This document shows positions 1,491-20,795 of a stretch of DNA of 20,799 bases, one piece after another; positions within the stretch are counted from its first letter, which is position 1; the number at the start of each line of letters is the position of its first letter. Origin of the DNA: a virus; IMG/VR virus record IMGVR_UViG_3300037070_000906, positions 1 to 20,799 of that record; one strand, written 5' to 3'. The translations under genes were made by a program, and so were the position numbers. Below the pieces are notes generated by a model. The model had not been told where the DNA came from. It saw only the letters and a program-made list of their open reading frames with translations, and did not search any database.

Positions 1491-1625
1491 TTAGCGGGTT
1501 GCAGTGGGCCGTGCGGGGATCGCAGTTAGCTGTGCGGGGCACCACTGCCTAGCGGTGTTGTTAACGTGCGAGCAGTTGCGGTTGTGGATTCCGTGGGCTG
1601 TGCGGGTGGGGGTTGCAGTGTTCAT
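1491..1625 (-). CDS. Small hypothetical protein, 44 aa
   Basis: The ATG at 1625 overlaps the TGA of the 92-aa gene by four bases (ATGA) and has GGAG seven bases upstream, so the start is well supported. The peptide begins MNTATPTRTAHGIHNRNCSH, is rich in Thr, Ala, Arg and Asn, and has two Cys and several His (NCSH and QWCPAQ), perhaps a minimal metal site. The DNA shows runs of related GTGCGGG-like words, so a short low-complexity product is possible. Function unknown. Confidence 0.5.
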   Translation of the reverse strand: MNTATPTRTAHGIHNRNCSHVNNTARQWCPAQLTAIPARPTATR

Positions 1626-1900
1626 ATCGTGTCTCCTGTGTATGTAGTGCGCACTAGCGCGATTTCGTAGGGCAAGCGCCCTAGCTTCAAGCATCGGGCC
1701 TGTAGTGATTTAGCGGACTTCTGTGTAGCTACGGGGAAAATCTCGCCTGTGTAGTGATCCTGCAACTCCCACCCATAGGTGGAATCATGCGAGATAACTA
1801 GGTTTGCGAGAATCTCCCACGGGGCAGTGTGCCCGTAGACCCCGATAGCGGGGAGTGATGCGCGGTAGGTTTCCTGCGCTTCGATGTCTGACCATTCCAT
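1622..1900 (-). CDS. Hypothetical protein, 92 aa, first gene of left operon
   Basis: This is the first gene downstream of the DnaA-box array on the minus strand. The ATG at 1900 is preceded by AAGGG seven bases upstream. The product starts MEWSDIEAQETYRASLPAIG, contains WEILANLVISHDSTYGWELQ and ends RTTYTGDTI. It has a mixed alpha/beta look, no membrane helix and one Cys. I do not recognise a family. As the leading gene of the left operon, it would be the first product controlled by any promoter within 1901-2320. Confidence 0.7.
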   Translation of the reverse strand: MEWSDIEAQETYRASLPAIGVYGHTAPWEILANLVISHDSTYGWELQDHYTGEIFPVATQKSAKSLQARCLKLGRLPYEIALVRTTYTGDTI

Positions 1901-2041: not shown

Positions 2042-2314
2042 TTATCCACAGGGTTATCCACCGTTTTGGCCTAGTTATCCACAGTTTCGCGTGAGTTATC
2101 CACAGTTTGGCCTAAGTTATCCACAGCTGCGGGCGAGTTATCCACAGTTTTGGCCTAGTTATCCACAGGTTTTGGGAGTTATCCACAGGCTTGAACCTGA
2201 GCGTAAGCTGATGGTTAGGTAACGGTAATGTAACGAAGTTATCCACAGGGTTATCCACAGGGTTATCCACAGGGTATAGTTATCCACAGGGTTATCCACA
2301 GGGTTGTGGATAAC
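2042..2314. repeat. DnaA-box array (13 perfect TTATCCACA boxes)
   Basis: Perfect TTATCCACA sequences begin at 2042, 2075, 2096, 2117, 2138, 2159, 2179, 2239, 2251, 2263, 2280 and 2292 on the plus strand. One further perfect box on the minus strand spans 2305-2313. TTATCCACC at 2054 is a one-base variant. Spacing is regular: six boxes from 2054 to 2159 are exactly 21 bp apart (two helical turns), and several others are 12 bp apart with a GGG spacer. The last pair forms a 10-bp inverted repeat (2291-2300 and 2305-2314). TTATCCACA is the bacterial DnaA-box consensus. The spacers partly repeat (GTTTTGGCCTAG and variants). No protein-coding frame is credible here. Confidence 0.9.
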
Positions 2315-2511: not shown

Positions 2512-2541
2512 AGTGTGGGGCCGATTTCTCGACCCCACACT
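2512..2541 (-). terminator. Terminator hairpin after the 80-aa gene
   Basis: AGTGTGGGG at 2512-2520 pairs perfectly with CCCCACACT at 2533-2541. The 12-base loop can add a short CGA/TCG pairing. On the minus strand the stem is followed by TTTTGCG. It lies about 95 bases beyond the stop at 2636, fits a rho-independent terminator, and would insulate the DnaA-box region from late transcription. Confidence 0.75.
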
Positions 2542-2965: not shown

Positions 2966-4993
2966 TTAGTACAGGTCGACCCAGGCGTAGGCCTCGGTGG
3001 CGTCCTTGCGACAGAACACGACCCGGTCCGCCGTACCCGCACCGGCTTGCACAAAAGCGACCACGCCGCGGTACGTTGACGAGGCAGCGGGCAATGCTCC
3101 CGAGTCGTACAGGCGGATGCCTTTGACACCGCTGCTGATGGTGCCGAAGAGGTTCGCGAGTGCGATGGTGCGCACTGTTAGCGAGTCAGCGGTGAGGTAC
3201 GCGGCGGCGGCGATCGCCTGGATGCGGGTGCCGCTGGTGCCCATTCCGACTACACCGTTAGCAGGCGTGGCAGGGTCGGAGAATCTCACGCCGCCCTGAC
3301 CCCACTGCCCTCCGGGGATATCTATCGTGAGGGCCGTTGCCCCCTGGTTGATGATCTGCGCCGGGCGCTTCTGCGTGTTCAAGTGTCGGTCAATAAGCGT
3401 GTTCGTTGTCAGACCCGAATTGTCGATAAAGGCAGGATCCGACGACGATGCCACCGAACCGTGGAGCTCGCAGTAGCAGTTGCCAACACCGGATGCAAGA
3501 ATGACGTTTGTACCCCGGTAACCCTTTACACCGATAACGCTATTACGCGATTGCTGCATATCAACGCCAGCGTCAAGGTCTGTCAGGTTTGTACCTTTTC
3601 CTGGAATAATGCCGGTGAACAGGTTGCCGCCAATCTGTTGTGCAGTTCCTGATGGGTTGGTATAGCGAACATGTGACGTGCCCGTTGCCCCCGACACTTT
3701 ACCGGTGTCAAACATCTGAAGATCGGAAAGAACTATCCCATTCCCTGCAATTGCGAAAATAGTTCCGTTTGTAGGTGCGTGCAAATATTCTACAAGCGGC
3801 GCACCAATGTAGTTGTCATGGGGCGCTTGTAGACCGTTGTCACGAATAATTACTGCCCCTGAGGCACCGACACTAGCCCCAGCACTAGACCCCTGTAGTT
3901 GTAGTCCTGTAATTCGGTTGCCATTAAACGCTCCCTGGGCAATCAAATACGGCACATTGTTTGCTGCCGCGCTCGCTGGCTCCATAGCTATCAGCGCATC
4001 AAAGTCGCTCATTTCTGAGCAACCTAGATCAAATGCAGCTCCACCAGTATTCGATACCGTGATGTGGTGTACCCACCCGCGCGTATACGATGTGGTCGGA
4101 TCAAACGCTAGACCCTTGTTAGCCCCTGTGGCATCGGGTGCCCCGCTTCCGACAAGTCTAAACATGCCAAACTCGCTCGCTTCCAAATTATACCCGACAC
4201 CTGTCAGGTCAAGAACTGGCCCTGACTGTGAGGTTGCAACGAGTCTAGAGTTAGCCGGGCCTTGACCAACCATTCCGCACTTAGCGGTGGCTGGCCATTT
4301 AAAGCCTGCTCCTACGGAAATGTCGCCGTTGTCTAGAACAATCTTTCCGGGGCTGGCACCCATAATTGCGTGCGCTGCTGCGAGTGTTGCCACCGCGCCC
4401 GACATTGTGGTTCCGGTGTTTGTGTCATTGCCGTTAGGCGAGACATACACAATCTTTGCCGCGCCTGATTCAAACGTTTCTTCGATGCGCGCAATGTCTT
4501 CTTCAAGATAAGTGGGATCGAAACTTCCTACATCACCCTTGTCACCTTTATCACCCTTGTCACCTTTAGGACCCTTGTCGCCCTTTTCACCTTTATCACC
4601 CTTGGGGCCTTGATTGATGGTGATAATGCCGCCACTTTCATCAACGGGTGTGACTAGTGTGAGATCTACTGTTGAGCCTTGTGGGAGTTGGAAGTTGAAG
4701 CTCTTGAATGGGACGTACTGCCCGTTGTCGTAGAGACTGAAGCTTGCTTTCCAGGTCCAGTCAACAGGGCTGCCGTCGGGGTCATTCGTTGCGTACAGTG
4801 TGGTCTTAACGGTGCCGTCTGCATTCAGCTTGGCTATTACCGGGTCTGGCAGAAGCGTTGTTGGAGGAAGTTCTGAGGAAAGCTGAATGCTACTAGGTGC
4901 TGGCTCGAAACTGACTGTTCCAGTGAGTGGGTGTTCTGGCATGCCGGTGATGTAGCGGCCAACTACGATACCGTGTCCGAGTGTTTTCTGCAT
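2966..4993 (-). CDS. Tail fibre/spike with collagen-like stalk, 675 aa
   Basis: This is a probable host-range tail fibre. The start is ATG 4993, with AAAGG six bases upstream overlapping the stop of the lysin gene; a longer frame reads back into that gene. Residues 1-128 resemble the N-terminal domain of many actinophage minor tail proteins (TGTVSFEP, LNADGTVKTTLYATNDPDG, VDWTWKASFSLYD). Residues 129-156 are nine Gly-X-Y triplets (GPKGDKGEKGDKG and on), a collagen-like trimeric stalk. From about 175, KIVYVSPNGNDTNTG and later Gly/Val-rich repeats suggest a right-handed beta-helix for receptor or glycan binding. The C-terminus (about 600-675, including TYRGVVAFVQAG) looks like a tip domain. 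DNA encoding the C-terminal part (2966-3330) is clearly richer in GC than the middle of the gene, suggesting domain exchange. It is the last gene of the late operon. Confidence 0.85.
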   Translation of the reverse strand: MQKTLGHGIVVGRYITGMPEHPLTGTVSFEPAPSSIQLSSELPPTTLLPDPVIAKLNADGTVKTTLYATNDPDGSPVDWTWKASFSLYDNGQYVPFKSFNFQLPQGSTVDLTLVTPVDESGGIITINQGPKGDKGEKGDKGPKGDKGDKGDKGDVGSFDPTYLEEDIARIEETFESGAAKIVYVSPNGNDTNTGTTMSGAVATLAAAHAIMGASPGKIVLDNGDISVGAGFKWPATAKCGMVGQGPANSRLVATSQSGPVLDLTGVGYNLEASEFGMFRLVGSGAPDATGANKGLAFDPTTSYTRGWVHHITVSNTGGAAFDLGCSEMSDFDALIAMEPASAAANNVPYLIAQGAFNGNRITGLQLQGSSAGASVGASGAVIIRDNGLQAPHDNYIGAPLVEYLHAPTNGTIFAIAGNGIVLSDLQMFDTGKVSGATGTSHVRYTNPSGTAQQIGGNLFTGIIPGKGTNLTDLDAGVDMQQSRNSVIGVKGYRGTNVILASGVGNCYCELHGSVASSSDPAFIDNSGLTTNTLIDRHLNTQKRPAQIINQGATALTIDIPGGQWGQGGVRFSDPATPANGVVGMGTSGTRIQAIAAAAYLTADSLTVRTIALANLFGTISSGVKGIRLYDSGALPAASSTYRGVVAFVQAGAGTADRVVFCRKDATEAYAWVDLY

Positions 4994-4995
4994 GA

Positions 4996-5331
4996 CTAAC
5001 CTTTCGCAACCAAAATGCCAAGAAGAACCAAATTCACCAATGTAACCAACCCCGCCACACCATATGCCCACCGGTTCACAGTGCTAACCGACTCAACATC
5101 GTTACGAATAGCACCAATCTGCGCGTTCGTTGATGCCGCAAACCCCTGCGCATCAAACGTCACAGGCTTGCCGTTGCCGTCGTAGATGGGGTTTCCGTCC
5201 TCATCCTGTGCCGGTAGCGGAGCCTTCCACACTGCCTGTTGAATGAATGGCCAGTCAGGGTGACCTGGCGGAAAGGTGTTCACGTCACGGTAAAACTCGA
5301 ACATGGCATCTTTAACGTCTTGCTTACTCAT
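4996..5331 (-). CDS. Possible internal-start holin-like product, 111 aa
   Basis: Codon 139 of the lysin gene is an ATG (5331-5329) preceded by AAGAGGA at a spacing of about 4-6 bases. Starting there gives MSKQDVKDAMFEFYRDV... with a soluble N-terminal part and a single C-terminal membrane segment, the size and topology of small phage holins or anti-holins. The acidic stretch EEDD that encodes the Shine-Dalgarno is at the domain boundary, so it may exist to place the internal site. This is inference; the same DNA is fully explained as part of the longer protein. Confidence 0.35.
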   Translation of the reverse strand: MSKQDVKDAMFEFYRDVNTFPPGHPDWPFIQQAVWKAPLPAQDEDGNPIYDGNGKPVTFDAQGFAASTNAQIGAIRNDVESVSTVNRWAYGVAGLVTLVNLVLLGILVAKG

Positions 5332-5745
5332 GTCGTCCTCTTCATCTAGATAAAGCTCGAAATTGAGTGTGTCTCTGAATGGTTTACTAACATCAGCCCT
5401 CAGGGTTACATGGACGTGAGGGCCATAATAATATTCCTCACCCCACCCTGACGCACCACTAATGAATATGCCTGTTTGTCCGCGACTTACTCGCTGCCCA
5501 GCATTGCCGTGAATCCAGTAGCCGTGGATATAGTCGATGACTCTGCCGTCATCCATGTATAGCTGTAGTCGTCTGCCTTCAGCACCGCCAGGGTTGTTGT
5601 CAGCTAGGGCAATCATGCCGTCACCTGGCATTCGACAGTCTGTGCCAAACGCTGTCATATAGTCCGTGCCAGGCTCCGCACTGCCACGGTCGATGTGATC
5701 CTGCCAGTCATCAGACACGCCTACATCTGCGGGTGTGACATACAT
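4996..5745 (-). CDS. Endolysin: M23 peptidase with C-terminal membrane segment, 249 aa
   Basis: Probable lysis peptidase. The N-terminal ~115 residues have an M23 (zinc endopeptidase) pattern: DHIDRGSAEPGTDY (H17 and D28 as likely ligands), DYIHGYWIHG, and GPHVHVTLR with H110-x-H112. This variant motif is familiar from actinophage lysins. Residues 116-222 are a linker with acidic and Pro-rich parts, and residues of about 225-247 form one hydrophobic segment (WAYGVAGLVTLVNLVLLGIL), ending in AKG. The start ATG at 5745 shares a base with the TGA of the preceding gene. An in-frame ATG at 5331 with AAGAGGA upstream could yield a separate 111-aa membrane protein from the same gene. A soluble M23 domain fused to a membrane anchor is unusual for a lysin. 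Confidence 0.8.
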   Translation of the reverse strand: MYVTPADVGVSDDWQDHIDRGSAEPGTDYMTAFGTDCRMPGDGMIALADNNPGGAEGRRLQLYMDDGRVIDYIHGYWIHGNAGQRVSRGQTGIFISGASGWGEEYYYGPHVHVTLRADVSKPFRDTLNFELYLDEEDDMSKQDVKDAMFEFYRDVNTFPPGHPDWPFIQQAVWKAPLPAQDEDGNPIYDGNGKPVTFDAQGFAASTNAQIGAIRNDVESVSTVNRWAYGVAGLVTLVNLVLLGILVAKG

Positions 5746-6029: not shown

Positions 6030-6111
6030 GTGTACTCCTGTACCAGAGAATGAGCCCGATTAGTGGATATGCGACACTGAGAATGTATTTAACTGTTCGT
6101 CCGATTGTCAT
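5980..6111 (-). CDS. Small single-span membrane protein, holin-like, 43 aa
   Basis: The frame starts at ATG 6111, overlaps the TGA of the packaging ATPase by four bases (ATGA), and ends at TGA 5980-5982 inside the next gene. The peptide begins MTIGRTVKYILSVAYPLIGL. It has one hydrophobic span (YILSVAYPLIGLILWY) and a strongly basic C-terminal tail (HAKPSKNHRSVTHRRR). One transmembrane helix and a positive tail is a common holin layout. Its position just before the lysin genes matches where phi29 keeps lysis genes. No sequence similarity can be claimed. Confidence 0.55.
   Translation of the reverse strand: MTIGRTVKYILSVAYPLIGLILWYRSTHAKPSKNHRSVTHRRR
6053..6063 (-). promoter_or_regulatory. Leader motif copy (CTAATCGGGCT)
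   Basis: This is another copy of the AATCGGGC element, about 23 bases upstream of the ATG at 6029. It lies inside the coding frame of the 43-aa membrane protein, so it could be coincidental here. Confidence 0.25.
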
Positions 6112-7163
6112 CGTTTGAAAACCTCCATGAAGGCGTTTCGTGTTGCCGGATGATCGAACCTAGTTCTGTCCTTACGGAATGCTGTACGCAACATCTGCAA
6201 TGGCTTGTCCTGTGGTGTGAAGAGAATTCTACCCTCACGCATTCGCTCAGGCGTGAGCACGTAGATATGTTCATCACTCACACCCTTCTTCTGCACATAG
6301 TAGAAATTAGTAACTATGTCATACCAAAGACTGAACTTTCCTCCCTCAACATCGAGTGAGAAAAGGTACCTAGCCCTGCTGGGTTTAGCACCAATAAGGA
6401 ACTTATGGTTATCCCTGAACTGGTTACCAACTGCATAGTCTGCGTATTCAGTGCCCTTGATGAAGCCGCCAAACTTTGTGGTGTAAACCTCAGACGTGAA
6501 CGCTGCATCATCAATGAAGTGTGCAACAACAAATCCGCCATACAGCTTTGTGAACCCTTCTTCGTCGGCTTCATCCGGGTCAAGCTTGTACTCGATAAAG
6601 TAGGGGTTTTCAATCCTCACACTGTTGGCGAGGAACAACACCCTAGTCTTATCTTTGTACCTGTCTACCGTGCTGAAGAAGTTGTTAAAGATCTGTGCTT
6701 CATTCGGCAGATAGTGAGTTGCAGACTTCTCAAGAATGAACTCATCAAAGGTGATCTTCTTCACCCTAGGGAATGCTACAGACTTATAGCTCTGTGCAAC
6801 CGACAGCGCGAGGAAGTAGCCAATGGTGAACCATTTGCGGCCCTTCTGGTCGCGCGTTTCGATTGGTGCCATTTGGGCTTCATGGCCCATATGCCTGAAA
6901 TCCCATTCTGGGAATTCGTGCTGCACGTCGGCAAAGTATGTGTCTCTTGAAAGCTTTAGCTCTTCCTTGTACCGTCTGAGATAAATGAATTGGTCGCACA
7001 TATCCGGGTTTTCCAGGTGTGTGCGAATAGCCATTTTAAGGTCAAGCTTCTTTGAGCCATATGTCTTACCGATGCCTCGCCCGCCAATAGCGAAGTTGTA
7101 TACGGCGTTGTACGACAACAGTTTGTTGAAGTTGTAGTATGACGTGATCTTTGGCGCACTCAC
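6108..7163 (-). CDS. DNA packaging ATPase (phi29 gp16-like), 351 aa
   Basis: This motor protein drives genome translocation into the prohead and forms a ring on the portal. The Walker A motif is seen at residues 27-34 (GGRGIGKT) and Walker B at about 136-141 (KKITFDE). Around these lie the phi29 gp16 signatures QFIYLRRYKEEL, HYLPNEAQ, ANSVRIENPYF and GTEYADYAVGNQF. Length 351 compares with 332 for phi29 gp16. The start is GTG 7163, overlapping the TGA of the tail peptidase gene by four bases (GTGA). In phi29 this ATPase needs a packaging RNA; candidates are discussed for 20236-20325 and 15585-15714. Confidence 0.95.
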   Translation of the reverse strand: MSAPKITSYYNFNKLLSYNAVYNFAIGGRGIGKTYGSKKLDLKMAIRTHLENPDMCDQFIYLRRYKEELKLSRDTYFADVQHEFPEWDFRHMGHEAQMAPIETRDQKGRKWFTIGYFLALSVAQSYKSVAFPRVKKITFDEFILEKSATHYLPNEAQIFNNFFSTVDRYKDKTRVLFLANSVRIENPYFIEYKLDPDEADEEGFTKLYGGFVVAHFIDDAAFTSEVYTTKFGGFIKGTEYADYAVGNQFRDNHKFLIGAKPSRARYLFSLDVEGGKFSLWYDIVTNFYYVQKKGVSDEHIYVLTPERMREGRILFTPQDKPLQMLRTAFRKDRTRFDHPATRNAFMEVFKR

Positions 7164-13729: not shown

Positions 13730-15190
13730 CTACTTCTTGTCGTCGGCCTTGGACGCCTTGGAGGCATCGTCAGCGGCCACAGGCGGGTCAGGAGTGACCT
13801 CCGGGTTGGGCCACGGCTGGATGATGTCACCCGCCACTCCGAAGCTCTTGGTGACCGGTGTGGGGGTTCCGTCGAGGGCCAGCACGTTGATGGTCACGTT
13901 CGCTGCGGTCTCGTCTGGGCCGATGAAGAGCGACCCCTCATTCCTCACGTAGCTGAAGTCCGAGAGGGCTCCCACGAGGTCCAGGTCGAGCGCTGAGACC
14001 CCGCCAGCGGGTGTGGTGACACCCTCCACCGACACGTCATACAGCACACCACGGAGAATGTTGGTGGTAGCAACATTTCCAGCCTTGTCCTTCACCGTAA
14101 TCGCGCCAATTGCCGTGGTAGGCGTAGGCGTTTCGGTAATGACCGTGGTGGGTCGGGTGCTGCTGAACATGACAAGAGGCACAAAGCGGGATGCGCTCAT
14201 AACCTGCCAGTGATGCAGCCAATAGTTCGTAGTGAGCTTTGCCGGGTTGAACTGAGAAGTGGTCTCAATCAGGTTATCCGCAACCACAAAGAAGTCAGAC
14301 GTGGTGAGGATCGCCTGAAGCCCGTCAATACCAAAGTAGCGCTCCGGAACAACAATCTTACGGTTGTTGACCTGAGCCTTATCGATATTGAAAGCGCCCG
14401 CGAGAGCTTCAACATCCATTGCCGCATCAGCGGTGGCCGTGGTGATAAGGATGAGCTTATCCGGGTTAGCCGCTACCGGCATACCTGCCGGGTTGTACAG
14501 ACGCGAAATGAACGGGAGGGTGTTGTTGAATTCACGAATCCGTCGCAGAAGTTCGCGGGACTCAACTTCGCCAGAAGCGGGGTCACCAACATCCGGGACA
14601 TTCTGAATGTGGTAAGCCTCAGCCTTGTCGAATTCCTTGAAGAGGTTCATCATCAGAAGGAATTCGTCGTTCTGGTCAGAAGTCTGCGGCATGCTCATGA
14701 CGTTGGCGAGGAAAGATCCAAGCTCGTTGTTGAGAAGCGCCATGCGAAGGCCAGGCTGATTGACCGTGAAAGCGTAACGGTCACGACGGTTGATCTTGTG
14801 GAAGGAAGTCTGAGTCTCGAACGGGTGGTGCCCGAAGATTTCCTTTTCAAGCTCATCACGGTCAAAGTCGTAATCAACGGCTTCCAGAAGGCCGTTCATC
14901 ACTTCTTCAATCGTGTCACCATTCTGAAGCGCACCAATCTTGAACGCTGCAAGCGGGTTAGTCCAAATGGTGTTCTTGAAAAGCACAAGCCCAATGCGGT
15001 TGACAAGAGCGTCAACAACCTGATTACGCCCAGCCTGGTAATCCCAAAGCTGAGCGATAGTTTCTGCGACATTGGCCTGAGTAGCCTCAGGGATGCGGGC
15101 CTGATACTCACTGCCAAGAGAGTTGCGAATGGCGTTAAGCCAATCGACGTTACTCGCCTTGTCAATAAGCGGTCGAATGTTCTTGACCAC
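13730..15190 (-). CDS. Major capsid protein (gp8-like) with C-terminal Ig-like domain, 486 aa
   Basis: This is the shell subunit, of the HK97 fold in phi29-like phages. Segments typical of this family include LGSEYQARIPEATQANVAET, GLVLFKNTIWTNPLAAFKIG, GHHPFETQTSFHKINRRDRY and RIREFNNTLPFISRLYNPAG. Residues of about 360-455 (ITVKDKAGNVATTNI to VTKSFGVAGD) look like an Ig/BIG2-type domain, also seen at the C-terminus of phi29 gp8. The last 30 residues are Pro/Ala/Lys-rich (SKASKADDKK). The start is GTG 15190, with GAAAGG seven bases upstream. The DNA for the C-terminal domain (13730-14050) is visibly more GC-rich than the rest of the gene. Confidence 0.93.
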   Translation of the reverse strand: MVKNIRPLIDKASNVDWLNAIRNSLGSEYQARIPEATQANVAETIAQLWDYQAGRNQVVDALVNRIGLVLFKNTIWTNPLAAFKIGALQNGDTIEEVMNGLLEAVDYDFDRDELEKEIFGHHPFETQTSFHKINRRDRYAFTVNQPGLRMALLNNELGSFLANVMSMPQTSDQNDEFLLMMNLFKEFDKAEAYHIQNVPDVGDPASGEVESRELLRRIREFNNTLPFISRLYNPAGMPVAANPDKLILITTATADAAMDVEALAGAFNIDKAQVNNRKIVVPERYFGIDGLQAILTTSDFFVVADNLIETTSQFNPAKLTTNYWLHHWQVMSASRFVPLVMFSSTRPTTVITETPTPTTAIGAITVKDKAGNVATTNILRGVLYDVSVEGVTTPAGGVSALDLDLVGALSDFSYVRNEGSLFIGPDETAANVTINVLALDGTPTPVTKSFGVAGDIIQPWPNPEVTPDPPVAADDASKASKADDKK

Positions 15191-16210: not shown

Positions 16211-18040
16211 TCAATGCAGCTTCAACTCAAACGGCTTATCTCTCAGGATCACGCCACCCGGCACGGTCATGGGTTCCAGCTTTCCATGCAGCACCGTGCC
16301 ATGTACGAGGTCATCAAACGTGAGTGATCCTGAGATTGCTGTGGGAAGTCCGGCAATACGATTTTCGTAATGCCCATCAGCTTTCAATTCGAGATACGCT
16401 TTGGGCCGAATGTAGTAGGCGTTCTGGAAGTTGTATTCCAACTTCCACGCCCCTAGGTCTGAGGGGTGGACCGTGATATTACTGGGAGGCTCATCCTGAA
16501 GTAGATGTAGCGAGTCTGTGTCTGCGTACGCAAAGTTTTCATAGTTGGCCTGTGCAGCCCTAATGGTGATATCACGCGCATAAGCCGTAATGAAAACACC
16601 CGCTGCCGTGTATACAGGTGGGCGCTGCTCTGGTACACCCCGAACAAGTTTGACGATTCCGTCTTGGAGAACAGGAATCTTTGATGTGACGTTTGGGTTT
16701 GAAGCGAACTTCCCATATAGAGAGTTAAGATGCAGCTTTGCAATCTCACGCTTACCACCTGTCTCGGACACTTTAATTGCTGTCCACTTGTCAATGTATT
16801 CATCGAACATACCTTGGTTGGCCCGGAACTTTAAGCCACCCTCATAAGCCAACACTTCAATGTCGTAATGGTCGTTATACAGTTTCCAGTCAACATTTGT
16901 GACTGTCATTGTCGTAGGCTCTTTAATCTCCCGCAGATACTCTGTACCCATGAAGAGGTTGTTACCCTTGATCTGAATGCAAGGAATGTGATTAGGCTTC
17001 AATTTCGCAAGAAATGTTACCGTGAAAATCACAAGCGGTCGCTGCTCTGTCGGCAACACTTCACCACGGCTGAAGTCAGGTCTGCCAAACGGGATGGGAA
17101 CCATCTTCATCACTGACGGATACAGACTGTTCACGTCCAAGACAAGCCCGCTGCCCAACAAGCGACCTTGAAAGCGTGGGTCGGCGTAGGTGAATCCGCC
17201 ACGGTAGGCGTGTCGAATAACTCGGTCAAGCTCGAAACTGAGTGTTGGAAAGATGTTGTTGAACTTTCCTAATCCGCTGAGTTTCTTATATTCGGCCATA
17301 GCATCACTCGCAACAGTGAGCTTACGCATTCCACTATCAAGCACAACTTTCATTGCTTGACCAAGAATCGCCACGTCACGACGGAGGTAGTCCTCTTCCT
17401 CTTCTGTAAGTGGCTGCCCTGGGGCGCGATAAAGCTCATAGTCAATATCACCCTTAGCCATTTCCAAATGGAAGCTTGTAGCAATGCGCCTCAGTGGCAT
17501 GGGAAGCTTCTTCAACGAATCACGAAACTCTGTTTCATTACCATTAGACCATTTCACGGTCATGGCAAAGAACTTACCCTGATCCGAAATGAGAGTCTTA
17601 AAGGTGTTTTCTAAAAGTGATTCTTCTGTTGTGTGCGTGTATCCGTTGTTCATCAGATAGTCCAAGATGAACATTGCATCGAACTTCAGGTTGTGGAAGT
17701 AGCACGTTCCGGGCTGCTTAGACACTCGCTCAATGAATGTGTCAATCGTTAAACCGATTTCCACATTCTCATAGCAAGCTGAATCCACTGCTAGAAAGCC
17801 CCAAGCCCACACTCTTGTCCGACCTTCAATTGACGGGTCTGTGAGCGTTTCAAAGTCAGCACAGAAATCTATCTTGGCGCGTGGTCGATCATTTCTTACC
17901 CTTGATCTTTTCGGCCTAGCTGGTAAAACCTCGGATGACTTCGCTGGCTTCCTGATAGGGACGCTTGTTAACTGTTTTAGACTCTCCCCGGGGGAGGCCT
18001 TCAGCCCATGTAATATACTCTCCCAAGTCCTCTGCTGCAC
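16211..18040 (-). CDS. Protein-primed family B DNA polymerase (phi29 type), ~609 aa
   Basis: This replicates the genome from the terminal-protein-capped ends. With the start at 18040, the motifs are: Exo I DFE at 62-64, Exo II HNLKFD near 116-121, Exo III Y218-x3-D222, YRGG at 279-282 (terminal-protein/template contact), motif A DVNSLYP from 302, motif B KLHLNSLYGKF near 435-445, motif C YADTDS from 505 and the KAY motif at 547-549. All catalytic residues are present and the core length matches phi29 (about 570). The start is uncertain: the catalytic core begins about 55 codons downstream of the GTG at 18040 (TTG 18100 is the outer limit), so the gene overlaps the terminal-protein gene. No in-frame ATG exists nearby. 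Confidence 0.97.
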   Translation of the reverse strand: MQQRTWESILHGLKASPGESLKQLTSVPIRKPAKSSEVLPARPKRSRVRNDRPRAKIDFCADFETLTDPSIEGRTRVWAWGFLAVDSACYENVEIGLTIDTFIERVSKQPGTCYFHNLKFDAMFILDYLMNNGYTHTTEESLLENTFKTLISDQGKFFAMTVKWSNGNETEFRDSLKKLPMPLRRIATSFHLEMAKGDIDYELYRAPGQPLTEEEEDYLRRDVAILGQAMKVVLDSGMRKLTVASDAMAEYKKLSGLGKFNNIFPTLSFELDRVIRHAYRGGFTYADPRFQGRLLGSGLVLDVNSLYPSVMKMVPIPFGRPDFSRGEVLPTEQRPLVIFTVTFLAKLKPNHIPCIQIKGNNLFMGTEYLREIKEPTTMTVTNVDWKLYNDHYDIEVLAYEGGLKFRANQGMFDEYIDKWTAIKVSETGGKREIAKLHLNSLYGKFASNPNVTSKIPVLQDGIVKLVRGVPEQRPPVYTAAGVFITAYARDITIRAAQANYENFAYADTDSLHLLQDEPPSNITVHPSDLGAWKLEYNFQNAYYIRPKAYLELKADGHYENRIAGLPTAISGSLTFDDLVHGTVLHGKLEPMTVPGGVILRDKPFELKLH

Positions 18041-18770
18041 CTGCAATTGCCCTATCCTGCCATCTCTCTTTACGAGAACCGTCACTATTATTGTGTTCAA
18101 GGTTGTACTTCATAAACACTGCTTCACCAATGTTTGTACCGAACCAGAACGCATCAAACTGCGCATCACTGAGATAGGTGAGACGTGCCATTTCGTCATC
18201 GTCACCCATAATCTCTAACGCCTTATACAGATTCTCCCTACCTTGGCCAATCTTGCCTGCAAGATAGTTCGGCTTAATCTGATTAAGCAAATTCTCACTA
18301 AGAGACTTCAGTGCGCTACGTGAAGCCACGTCACTAGGGCTTCTATCAATCGTTCGATACGGCCCTTGCACAATGGCATTAGGACCCTCCGTAGCGTTCT
18401 GCTTGTTCTGAAGCGCTGTATACCCGGAAGGTGTGTCAATCTTGGCCTGTACGGCTTGGTATGCTTCCCTCGCCGCTGCCTGTGCCTGTTCACGCCTCTT
18501 ATAGACGTACCACTCACCCTTAGTCGCTGGCGCGCCACCTGACAGCGCTACGAACTGATTACCCCTACGCATGAAGTCTTTAAGCTCGCTCAGATGCGAT
18601 TGCAGCTGTTTGGCGTTGTACTGGTTTTCGATGCCAGCCCTGCGTCGTGGGTCGAATTCTGATCCGCCAACTTTTGCGCCTGTGCTTTTCTGTACTCGGT
18701 TGATTTTGTTGGTGACGGCTTGGCGGGCTTTCTTGAGCTCTGCTCTGAGCCGTTCAACCTCACTGGCCAT
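17916..18770 (-). CDS. Probable terminal protein (gp3-like), 284 aa
   Basis: This is the probable primer for replication and the covalent cap of the DNA 5' ends. The assignment rests on its place directly before the protein-primed polymerase, its size (phi29 TP is 266 aa) and its build: a basic, coiled-coil N-terminus (EVERLRAELKKARQAVTNKI), a middle domain with Arg/Gln-rich helices, and a C-terminal helical priming-type domain (ERWQDRAIAGAAEDLGEYIT, WAEGLPRGESKTV, ending EVIRGFTS). The priming Ser, Thr or Tyr cannot be picked with confidence. ATG 18770 shares its A with the stop of the 45-aa gene. Confidence 0.78.
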   Translation of the reverse strand: MASEVERLRAELKKARQAVTNKINRVQKSTGAKVGGSEFDPRRRAGIENQYNAKQLQSHLSELKDFMRRGNQFVALSGGAPATKGEWYVYKRREQAQAAAREAYQAVQAKIDTPSGYTALQNKQNATEGPNAIVQGPYRTIDRSPSDVASRSALKSLSENLLNQIKPNYLAGKIGQGRENLYKALEIMGDDDEMARLTYLSDAQFDAFWFGTNIGEAVFMKYNLEHNNSDGSRKERWQDRAIAGAAEDLGEYITWAEGLPRGESKTVNKRPYQEASEVIRGFTS

Positions 18771-19188: not shown

Positions 19189-19350
19189 TTAGTCCCAAGC
19201 GTCGATTTGGTGAATGACTCTTAGGTGGTGGTTATAATCCGAATCGTTATCAAAGATTCGGTTACAGAATTCACAGGCAATTCGCTTAGCCATCTCGGGT
19301 GTCATGCGCTTTTCGATTTCAGCACGTATCCCATCGAACGGCCTGTCCAT
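19189..19350 (-). CDS. Small C2H2 zinc-finger protein, 53 aa
   Basis: ATG 19350 shares its A with the TAA of the Acb2-like gene, and TAA ends it at 19189-19191. After a helical N-terminus (EIEKRMTPEMAKRIA), residues 26-47 form a near-classical C2H2 zinc finger: CEFC at 26-29, F33, then H41/H42, L43 and H47. Such a finger in a 53-aa phage protein suggests a DNA-binding regulator of early or late transcription, or a host-takeover factor. Phi29 uses p4 for transcription switching and no p4 homologue is recognisable here, so this is a candidate only. Confidence 0.75.
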   Translation of the reverse strand: MDRPFDGIRAEIEKRMTPEMAKRIACEFCNRIFDNDSDYNHHLRVIHQIDAWD

Positions 19351-19550
19351 TATGGCTGGTCACCTTCGTGACCGGCGATTTTGTCTGTGATGTGTGGTGG
19401 CACAATTCCGCCTGTGTTGGGTCTTGCAGCCTTCAGCCACATAATGCATTCTTCAAGCTTCGTAATCGCTAGTGCCAATTCGCGCGACTTAGGCATATTC
19501 TGCAAGATTTCAAGATGAAGCTCTAGCTCCATAATTGCACCGTCAAACAT
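19350..19550 (-). CDS. Acb2/Tad1-hairpin-like anti-defence protein, 66 aa
   Basis: The ATG at 19550 overlaps the end of the 47-aa gene by eight bases. Residues of about 20-42, containing PKSRELALAITKLEECIMWL and then KAARPN, match the recurrent SRE..LA.TKLEEA.MW..KA signature I associate with the Acb2/Tad1 hairpin family. These small phage proteins sequester cyclic oligonucleotide or cyclic ADPR signals and so block CBASS and Thoeris defence. The N-terminal half (MFDGAIMELELHLEILQNMP) is a helix, as expected for the helical hairpin, and 66 aa is within the usual range. The assignment rests on recall of the motif, not an alignment. Its early position fits a protein needed soon after infection. 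Confidence 0.65.
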   Translation of the reverse strand: MFDGAIMELELHLEILQNMPKSRELALAITKLEECIMWLKAARPNTGGIVPPHITDKIAGHEGDQP

Positions 19551-19770: not shown

Positions 19771-20193
19771 TCAGAACTTGAGGGTGAGGTATCGGAACTT
19801 ACCCCGGTTGCCCTGTTCGACCGTCACGACAAGGGGCTCTTCCCACGTTGTGGGATCGCCCAGCACCTTGAATGCCTGCTGAAGAGAAATGGCGATACCC
19901 TTGGAAGCTGCGTGGTAGGCGTTGCCGTCAGCATCGATCAGCGTCGTGCGCACCGTGTCCTCAATGAGGCCCGTCTCATCGTTGGGGAACGAGACTGCCT
20001 GAAGCACCACGTCCACAACGGCGATTTCCTCGCCAACCTTGTCCAGAAGCGGGAGGGAGTTGTTGACAGCCTTGAGCATGGCCATTTTCTCGGCCCGCGT
20101 GTTGAGCTGAAGAGAGGTGTAGAATCCAGCATCCTCTTCAGTGATCTTGGTGACCTCGTTGGACGGGGCCTGTGTTGCTACTGCATCAGTCAT
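19771..20193 (-). CDS. Single-stranded-DNA-binding protein, 140 aa
   Basis: This probably coats displaced single strands during protein-primed strand-displacement replication. ATG 20193 follows AAAAGGAAAAC; the longer upstream frame reads through the leader. The pattern is familiar from the phage ssDNA-binding proteins of small podoviruses: GFYTSLQLNTRAEKMAMLKA, a VVDVVLQAVSF strand, NDETGLIEDTVRTTLIDADG, AYHAASKGIAISLQQAFKVL, and the C-terminal NRGKFRYLTLKF. It is the first gene from the right end, with the longest leader in the genome, and probably the most strongly expressed early gene. The specific family assignment is from memory of such sequences. Confidence 0.75.
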   Translation of the reverse strand: MTDAVATQAPSNEVTKITEEDAGFYTSLQLNTRAEKMAMLKAVNNSLPLLDKVGEEIAVVDVVLQAVSFPNDETGLIEDTVRTTLIDADGNAYHAASKGIAISLQQAFKVLGDPTTWEEPLVVTVEQGNRGKFRYLTLKF

Positions 20194-20210
20194 TTGTTTT
20201 CCTTTTCTTG

Positions 20211-20223
20211 TGCCCGATTGGCG
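20211..20223 (-). promoter_or_regulatory. Leader motif copy (CGCCAATCGGGCA)
   Basis: This 13-base element is identical to 16140-16152 and lies 18 bases upstream of the ssDNA-binding protein ATG, just downstream of the structured RNA candidate. Shorter AATCGGGC copies occur at 2894, 6053 and 15706 on the same strand, and one inverted copy at 15583. Confidence 0.5.
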
Positions 20224-20235
20224 TATTGGATTGTT

Positions 20236-20325
20236 GATGTGGTGGCAGCGCACGAAGGACTCTACGGGGTTAACTGGGAGTTACCCTTTCAGTGCGAAAG
20301 CTCTTACCTAGTCCTAGACCACATC
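20236..20325 (-). ncRNA. Three-way-junction RNA candidate (packaging RNA or leader)
   Basis: On the minus strand, 90 bases fold compactly. The outer stem pairs 20318-20325 with 20236-20243 (GATGTGGT/ACCACATC, 8 bp). A second stem pairs 20310-20315 with 20256-20261 (AGGACT/AGTCCT, 6 bp). Within it are two hairpins: CTTTC-GCACT-GAAAG (20286-20300) and GGGTAACT-CCC-AGTTAACCC (20267-20286, one bulge). The loop CGCAC (20292-20296) is complementary to GTGCG (20249-20253) in the junction strand, allowing a pseudoknot or intermolecular kissing contact. Phi29 packaging RNA likewise lies near a genome end, has paired ends, a three-way junction and interacting loops. A cis-acting leader for the downstream gene is the alternative. 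Confidence 0.5.
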
Positions 20326-20745: not shown

Positions 20746-20779
20746 CACTTAACGTTTATATGCTCAATTCTAAGTTAAT
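20746..20779. repeat. 34-bp direct repeat, outer copy
   Basis: This is the second copy of the element at 20641-20674. Its last seven bases overlap the inverted terminal repeat, so it lies within the right replication origin. Confidence 0.7.
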
Positions 20780-20795
20780 TGTGCCCAACTGTACC
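20773..20795. repeat. Right inverted terminal repeat
   Basis: This is the exact reverse complement of 1-23. Four further bases (CTTC) follow to the end of the sequence. Read from the end inward, the right terminus is GAAGGGTACAG, against GGTACAG at the left. Confidence 0.9.

Follow-up and report, generated by a model that had tools for sequence, protein, structure and literature searches.

Clustered DnaA boxes at the head of the right-end operon in a clade of phi29-like phages

We analysed a 20,799-nucleotide virus record from IMG/VR (IMGVR_UViG_3300037070_000906; this whole stretch is called the window below). It carries 13 exact copies of the canonical DnaA box TTATCCACA and one TTATCCACC within positions 2042–2313. 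Comparison with relatives indicates that this cluster of host-type DnaA boxes in a protein-primed phi29-like phage is real and apparently under selection. Our leading explanation, which we rate a little below an even chance, is that the array is a predicted platform for host DnaA that acts in cis at the head of the right-end operon of one clade of phi29-like phages and controls that operon. Replication independent of the host initiator has its textbook case in protein-primed phages. Conserved perfect boxes in such a clade probably mean that host DnaA is used for regulation, takeover or entry. With a single discrete array in 20 kb, the phage makes a simple test system.

DnaA boxes in phages are already known, for example from the injection-stop region of T5 (PMC13250531). 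For phi29-like phages we found no account of them in the literature searched, a scope that left most subscription journals outside, and DnaA is absent from a 2024 review of these phages. An earlier reading of the window, made from its letters and here called the sequence-only reading, had likewise known of no such array in phi29-like phages.

Genome and box array

The window covers nearly all of a linear phi29-like genome, as a 23-bp repeat, GGTACAGTTGGGCACAATTAACT, lies inverted at both ends (1–23 on the plus strand at the phage right end; 20773–20795 on the minus strand at the phage left end, with four more bases beyond). Four other carriers of the array have inverted terminal repeats of their own. 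The window encodes a protein-primed family B DNA polymerase (PolB; 16211–18100), a DNA terminal protein (17916–18770; PHROG match with E = 5e-4, 31–32% identity to the terminal proteins of relatives), a phi29-type single-strand DNA-binding protein (SSB; 19771–20253) and a phi29 gp16-type packaging ATPase (6108–7163), which served as the query for relatives, together with capsid, tail, portal and lower collar proteins. All of these genes are on the minus strand, so low window coordinates correspond to the phi29 right end. The protein-primed replication genes, short inverted terminal repeats, packaging ATPase, head and tail proteins, genome order and small right-end genes are all of the phi29 (Salasmaviridae) type. 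The right-end operon of phi29 itself runs inward from promoter C2, whereas that of the window runs towards the genome end.

Three other genes of the window deserve mention. A 66-aa protein in the left-end region (19350–19550, minus strand) matches Pfam Acb2_Tad1_hairpin above the cut-off (E = 2e-8), and from this match it is likely to be a sponge of cyclic-nucleotide defence signals (anti-CBASS or anti-Thoeris). Two M23-peptidase-like genes occur in this one small phage (4996–5745 and 7160–7894, minus strand); the match at 4996–5745 falls under Pfam's cut-off, and a collagen-repeat protein (2966–5071) adjoins that gene.

Matches to the canonical box are far above chance in the window. Twelve exact copies lie on the plus strand, starting at 2042, 2075, 2096, 2117, 2138, 2159, 2179, 2239, 2251, 2263, 2280 and 2292. 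The thirteenth is on the minus strand at 2305, inverted so that it faces the box at 2292, and TTATCCACC is at 2054. Composition predicts 0.14 exact boxes for the whole window, and a scan of the rest of the window found no exact copy outside the array. When up to one mismatch is allowed, the count for the window rises to 18 sites; shuffled sequences have 4.5 ± 2.1, and none of 100 shuffles reached 18.

The start-to-start spacings are, in order, 12 bp (to TTATCCACC), five of 21, then 20, 60, 12, 12, 17, 12 and 13 bp. They divide the array into two blocks. The phased block (2075–2187, plus strand) holds six exact boxes at 21, 21, 21, 21 and 20 bp; the core block (2239–2313) has tandem boxes at 12 or 17 bp and is closed by the head-to-head pair at 2292 (plus) and 2305 (minus). 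Between them lies an element of about 50 bp (2188–2238, minus strand; CGTTACnnnACCGTTACCTA...CTCAGGTTCAA) in common with one relative, L178. A coding repeat is ruled out by frame-breaking spacings and divergence. A plus-strand open frame at 1938–2222 runs through the boxes and was dropped as a gene candidate, because spacings in the window and its relatives include 11, 13, 17 and 20 bp and no frame is kept. A known RNA element was also considered and rejected, with no Rfam match within the window.

From the array to the late-gene terminator extends a non-coding stretch (2314–2511). Its GC content is 40–44% in 100-bp steps, against 51% for the genome, and 30% in the lowest 60 bp. Across carriers, a 60-bp stretch of 18–35% GC adjoins the boxes. 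The right ends of many array-less relatives have 60-bp stretches that are equally AT-rich, so the stretch, considered as an unwinding element, is not specific to array carriers. No DnaA-trio run (at least 4) was found beside the core in the window; among carriers, a possible one (AAATAATAAAAG) occurs only in L181 and L184. The scan of window proteins recognised no dnaA or dnaN product, initiator of the phage's own, helicase, loader or primase.

Much of the sequence-only reading holds on this evidence. The polymerase, terminal protein, SSB and terminal repeats bear out its protein-primed phi29-type genome, and its 13 perfect boxes and one near match, 12 of the perfect ones in one orientation, were all found again. 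Its "strict" 21- and 12-bp registers were slightly overstated: most spacings are 21 or 12 bp, and 13, 17, 20 and 60 bp also occur. The AT-rich non-coding stretch that it placed alongside is present, although only moderately AT-rich and not specific to carriers.

In phage orientation, the array follows a hairpin resembling an intrinsic terminator (2512–2541, minus strand) after the late genes and precedes small ORFs (163–1900) directed to the genome end. A similar GTGTGGGG hairpin recurs in relatives. The first right-end gene (1622–1900, minus strand; 92 aa) begins 142 bp past the last box; it has a weak SopB-type HTH match, under the Pfam cut-off, and a partial homologue at the same place in L235. 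Beyond it, all on the minus strand, are a gene at 1087–1465 (about 125 aa from its ATG, with a ribosome-binding site), one at 738–986 (82 aa) and an ORF at 163–504 (113 aa), which has homologues of 76 aa, about 60% identical, at the right ends of L181 and L184. No right-end gene common to all carriers was found.

No sigma-70 promoter is recognisable beyond the array in the window. A promoter-like TTGACA is present 15–45 bp past the last box in six of the 13 carriers (L179, L181, L184, L334, L340 and L375, the window not among them), which are not six independent cases because they group in a few related sets. In L179 and L340 the motif is paired with CATTAT at 17 bp. The TTGACA of array-less L335 was dropped as promoter evidence, as it sits within a hairpin.

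Conservation among relatives

Nearer relatives were gathered by ATPase and PolB profile scans of IMG/VR. Only the best 80 loci were kept, so the sampling favours close relatives; the nearest is 73% identical in PolB. Clusters at the same site were found in L177, L178, L179, L181, L184, L216, L235, L242, L248, L257/L334, L261/L340 and L375. The window's array is therefore no one-off: there are 13 carriers in all, with 2–8 exact boxes in the 12 metagenomic relatives and 13 in the window. Position is constant in the 13 genomes, between the late genes or terminator and right-end ORFs running towards the genome end; carriers whose right ends are long have the array 1.4–3.0 kb from that end.

Nor is the array a general phi29-like trait, as it is missing from phi29, the cultured relatives and most metagenomic ones. 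Among 50 whole records, nine have at least two boxes, all clustered at the right-end site, two have one isolated box and 39 have none. The 12 cultured relatives have 0–1 scattered exact boxes, phi29 has none, and Cp-1 has a single isolated one. The hosts of the cultured relatives are Curtobacterium, Microbacterium, Arthrobacter, Actinomyces and Glutamicibacter, with one 'Rhizobium' phage that is actinobacterial in the view of a review. Judged from these relatives, the host of the window phage is likely actinobacterial. Host assignment through similar oriC sequences in genomes gave five scattered matches in other phyla and was uninformative.

A PolB tree of 58 genomes included 10 of the carriers. 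All 10 fall in one 12-genome clade (SH-aLRT 95), with 2 label changes against 9.3 after shuffling. On this tree the simplest history that fits would be one gain and one loss (L265/L267). The comparison with related phages that the sequence-only reading had proposed thus came out divided: the nearest clade keeps boxes at the same site, and distant relatives are without them. A search of array-less relatives for another repeated 9-mer in place of the boxes found nothing comparable, most repeats seen looking coding, and degenerate boxes at the site were not above shuffles in 12 of 13. The exception, the right end of L345 (relative L281), which has no exact boxes, shows a weak one-strand cluster at 4496–4557 (TTATCCAGA, TTATCCCCA, TTATTCACA), which may be a decayed form of the array, an early form or chance.

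Carriers also share architecture. In phage orientation the core reads as a box followed by an inverted box 12–13 bp on, and in most carriers by a third box about 12 bp beyond, which is also inverted and may be exact or degenerate; the head-to-head pair is kept in most carriers. The window and L178 both have a 21-bp-phased block and the element between blocks. The counterpart of the phased block in L178 holds four exact boxes at 21 bp. Between the phased blocks of the two genomes the spacers have diverged to 45% identity, and the boxes are all identical with the register kept.

Some flanking sequence recurs as well. L178 has a diverged counterpart (14440–14490) of the window's 2188–2238 element, and CTCAGGTT is likewise present close to the L235 and L248 arrays. 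A conserved TGTTGRTACAAAG immediately precedes the first box in L178, L242 and L375.

Candidate binder and competing explanations

The same design recurs in other phages. In 98 distinct arrays from viral contigs other than these, spacings of 11, 12, 21–23 or 32–34 bp account for 233 of the 309 between same-strand boxes (26% expected), and most boxes have G on both flanks. Clustered boxes occur among the phages that infect Enterobacteria, Lactococcus and others, and smaller groups of boxes in those of Microbacterium, Arthrobacter and Streptomyces. The core triad was found in 11 contigs with no phi29-like protein in the stretch examined. The 49 array-bearing contigs from pattern scans were rejected as PolB phages: none scored over the PF03175 curated cut-off, so their arrays belong to other phage kinds. 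To our knowledge, DnaA is the one known protein common to such hosts that reads TTATCCACA. Because the same phased boxes recur in unrelated phages, host DnaA likely binds the array.

DnaA is a transcription factor in bacteria. At the right-end operon, the head-to-head core and the helically phased boxes would both be bound by host DnaA, which would assemble cooperatively in the interval from the late-operon terminator to the first right-end gene. The complex would turn transcription of the small right-end genes up or down. While phage genomes are few, the boxes would be filled; once there are many, DnaA would be spread thin and the switch would flip. DnaA being limited, the setting should follow the host DnaA level and phage copy number. 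We favour a cis-regulatory complex because of the constant place, the kept orientation and phasing, the low box numbers in some carriers and the TTGACA in six. Counting against it, 13 boxes exceed the needs of a simple promoter switch, and the window is without a recognisable promoter at this place. The sequence-only reading had suggested three roles, namely a second replication mode, a sponge for host DnaA and DnaA-responsive operon control; the last fits the comparative anatomy best, with the missing promoter as its weak point.

Box arrays that titrate DnaA, such as datA and related loci, delay initiation, and the window's array could similarly deplete free DnaA, stopping host replication and turning resources to the phage with an effect that grows with copy number. 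This sponge function seems somewhat unlikely to us. The window's 13 perfect boxes do exceed those of any of 120 IMG/VR arrays sampled (the largest has 11 in 400 bp), and datA-type loci also carry many boxes without origin function. However, a sponge requires neither a fixed position nor a conserved head-to-head core, and the array is fixed at an operon head; several carriers have only 2–4 exact boxes, which would titrate little early in infection and fit a regulator better. Position bears equally on an entry checkpoint, in which DnaA on an array near the first-entering end anchors, pauses or ratchets the incoming DNA. In phi29 the right end is the first to enter, by a two-step push-pull process, and the array lies close to the right end. 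We still consider a checkpoint unlikely, as most phi29-like phages enter without an array. A role of this kind has been proposed for the injection-stop region of T5, in which repeats and DnaA boxes are described (PMC13250531). Other viral arrays are likewise enriched near contig ends, with 12 of 44 within 5% of an end against 4.4 expected (p = 0.001; IMG/VR contigs of at least 15 kb, from the first 120 matches listed and a second scan), although a contig end is not always a genome end.

A second, DnaA-dependent origin, with DnaA opening the adjacent AT-rich DNA and loading the host replisome onto the phage genome, is improbable. Dense, canonical, helically phased boxes, a mixed-orientation core with head-to-head boxes and an AT-rich neighbour do resemble bacterial origins. 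However, the genome is linear, the window and other carriers have the protein-primed apparatus of PolB, terminal protein and inverted terminal repeats, and the window has neither a dnaA/dnaN context nor a recognised helicase, loader, primase or trio run; the AT-rich stretches are as strong in array-less relatives. The "oriC-like" label of the sequence-only reading is therefore not supported as a description of a working origin. The repeats might instead be sites of a phage protein that reads the same nine bases by chance. Confinement of the boxes to one clade would suit this, and the uncharacterised small genes at the right and left ends could bind DNA. We find it decidedly improbable: the nine-base word matches the canonical DnaA box exactly, no right-end gene is present in all carriers, and the phased word with its G flanks recurs in unrelated phages (of Enterobacteria, Lactococcus, Streptomyces, Arthrobacter and Microbacterium), among which we know of no shared phage protein. 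Least credible is passive, functionless expansion of short repeats. Direct 12- and 21-bp repeats of variable copy number are what it would produce; perfect boxes among spacers that differ within and between genomes, mixed core orientation and one site kept over large PolB divergence argue against it.

Known systems and the wider pattern

Boxes of this kind are also found at the ends of phages with unrelated replication systems. In T5-type phages, which are lytic, clustered TTATCCACA lies outside coding sequence in the pre-early terminal-repeat region, the part that enters first; DT571/2 has four boxes at 5487–5568, between divergent pre-early genes. T5 is an unrelated phage with its own replication system, no terminal protein, fewer boxes and no shown sequence homology. 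Among T7-like phages, also unrelated in replication, Shigella phage A7 (22–135) and Enterobacter phage phiEap-1 (71–174) have 4–5 boxes at the extreme genome end, fewer than the window; their spacing is partly helical, and in A7 they lie within the terminal repeat. Scans for the 12-bp direct triple gave 21 viral contigs, and 5 stretches in 257 Gb of genomes, counts that are only roughly comparable because the genome scan used a slightly longer pattern.

That phased arrays recur in phages with no relation to one another suggests a cis-acting use of DnaA that has been overlooked, since the arrays are non-coding and skipped by annotation. A broader account, speculative and on balance doubtful in our judgement, would have the clade take up host DnaA as a titratable signal: the array would read free DnaA against phage copy number, time the right-end operon and disarm host initiation. 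Phased and head-to-head architectures would then have evolved independently close to genome ends in unrelated phages, which would make DnaA capture at first-entering DNA a general and largely unnoticed strategy.

Two further groups of arrays were seen in passing. Virus contigs of about 32–34 kb (L168 13081–13147, L174 157–222, L160 and L169) share a near-identical array of TTATCCACAGGG repeats followed by a box 21–22 bp on; close to the L168 array is a gene that by eye resembles a RusA-type resolvase. L151, a 4.6-kb ssDNA phage of the Microviridae, has three exact boxes at 20–21 bp and near-boxes at 972–1053, in a gap between annotated features.
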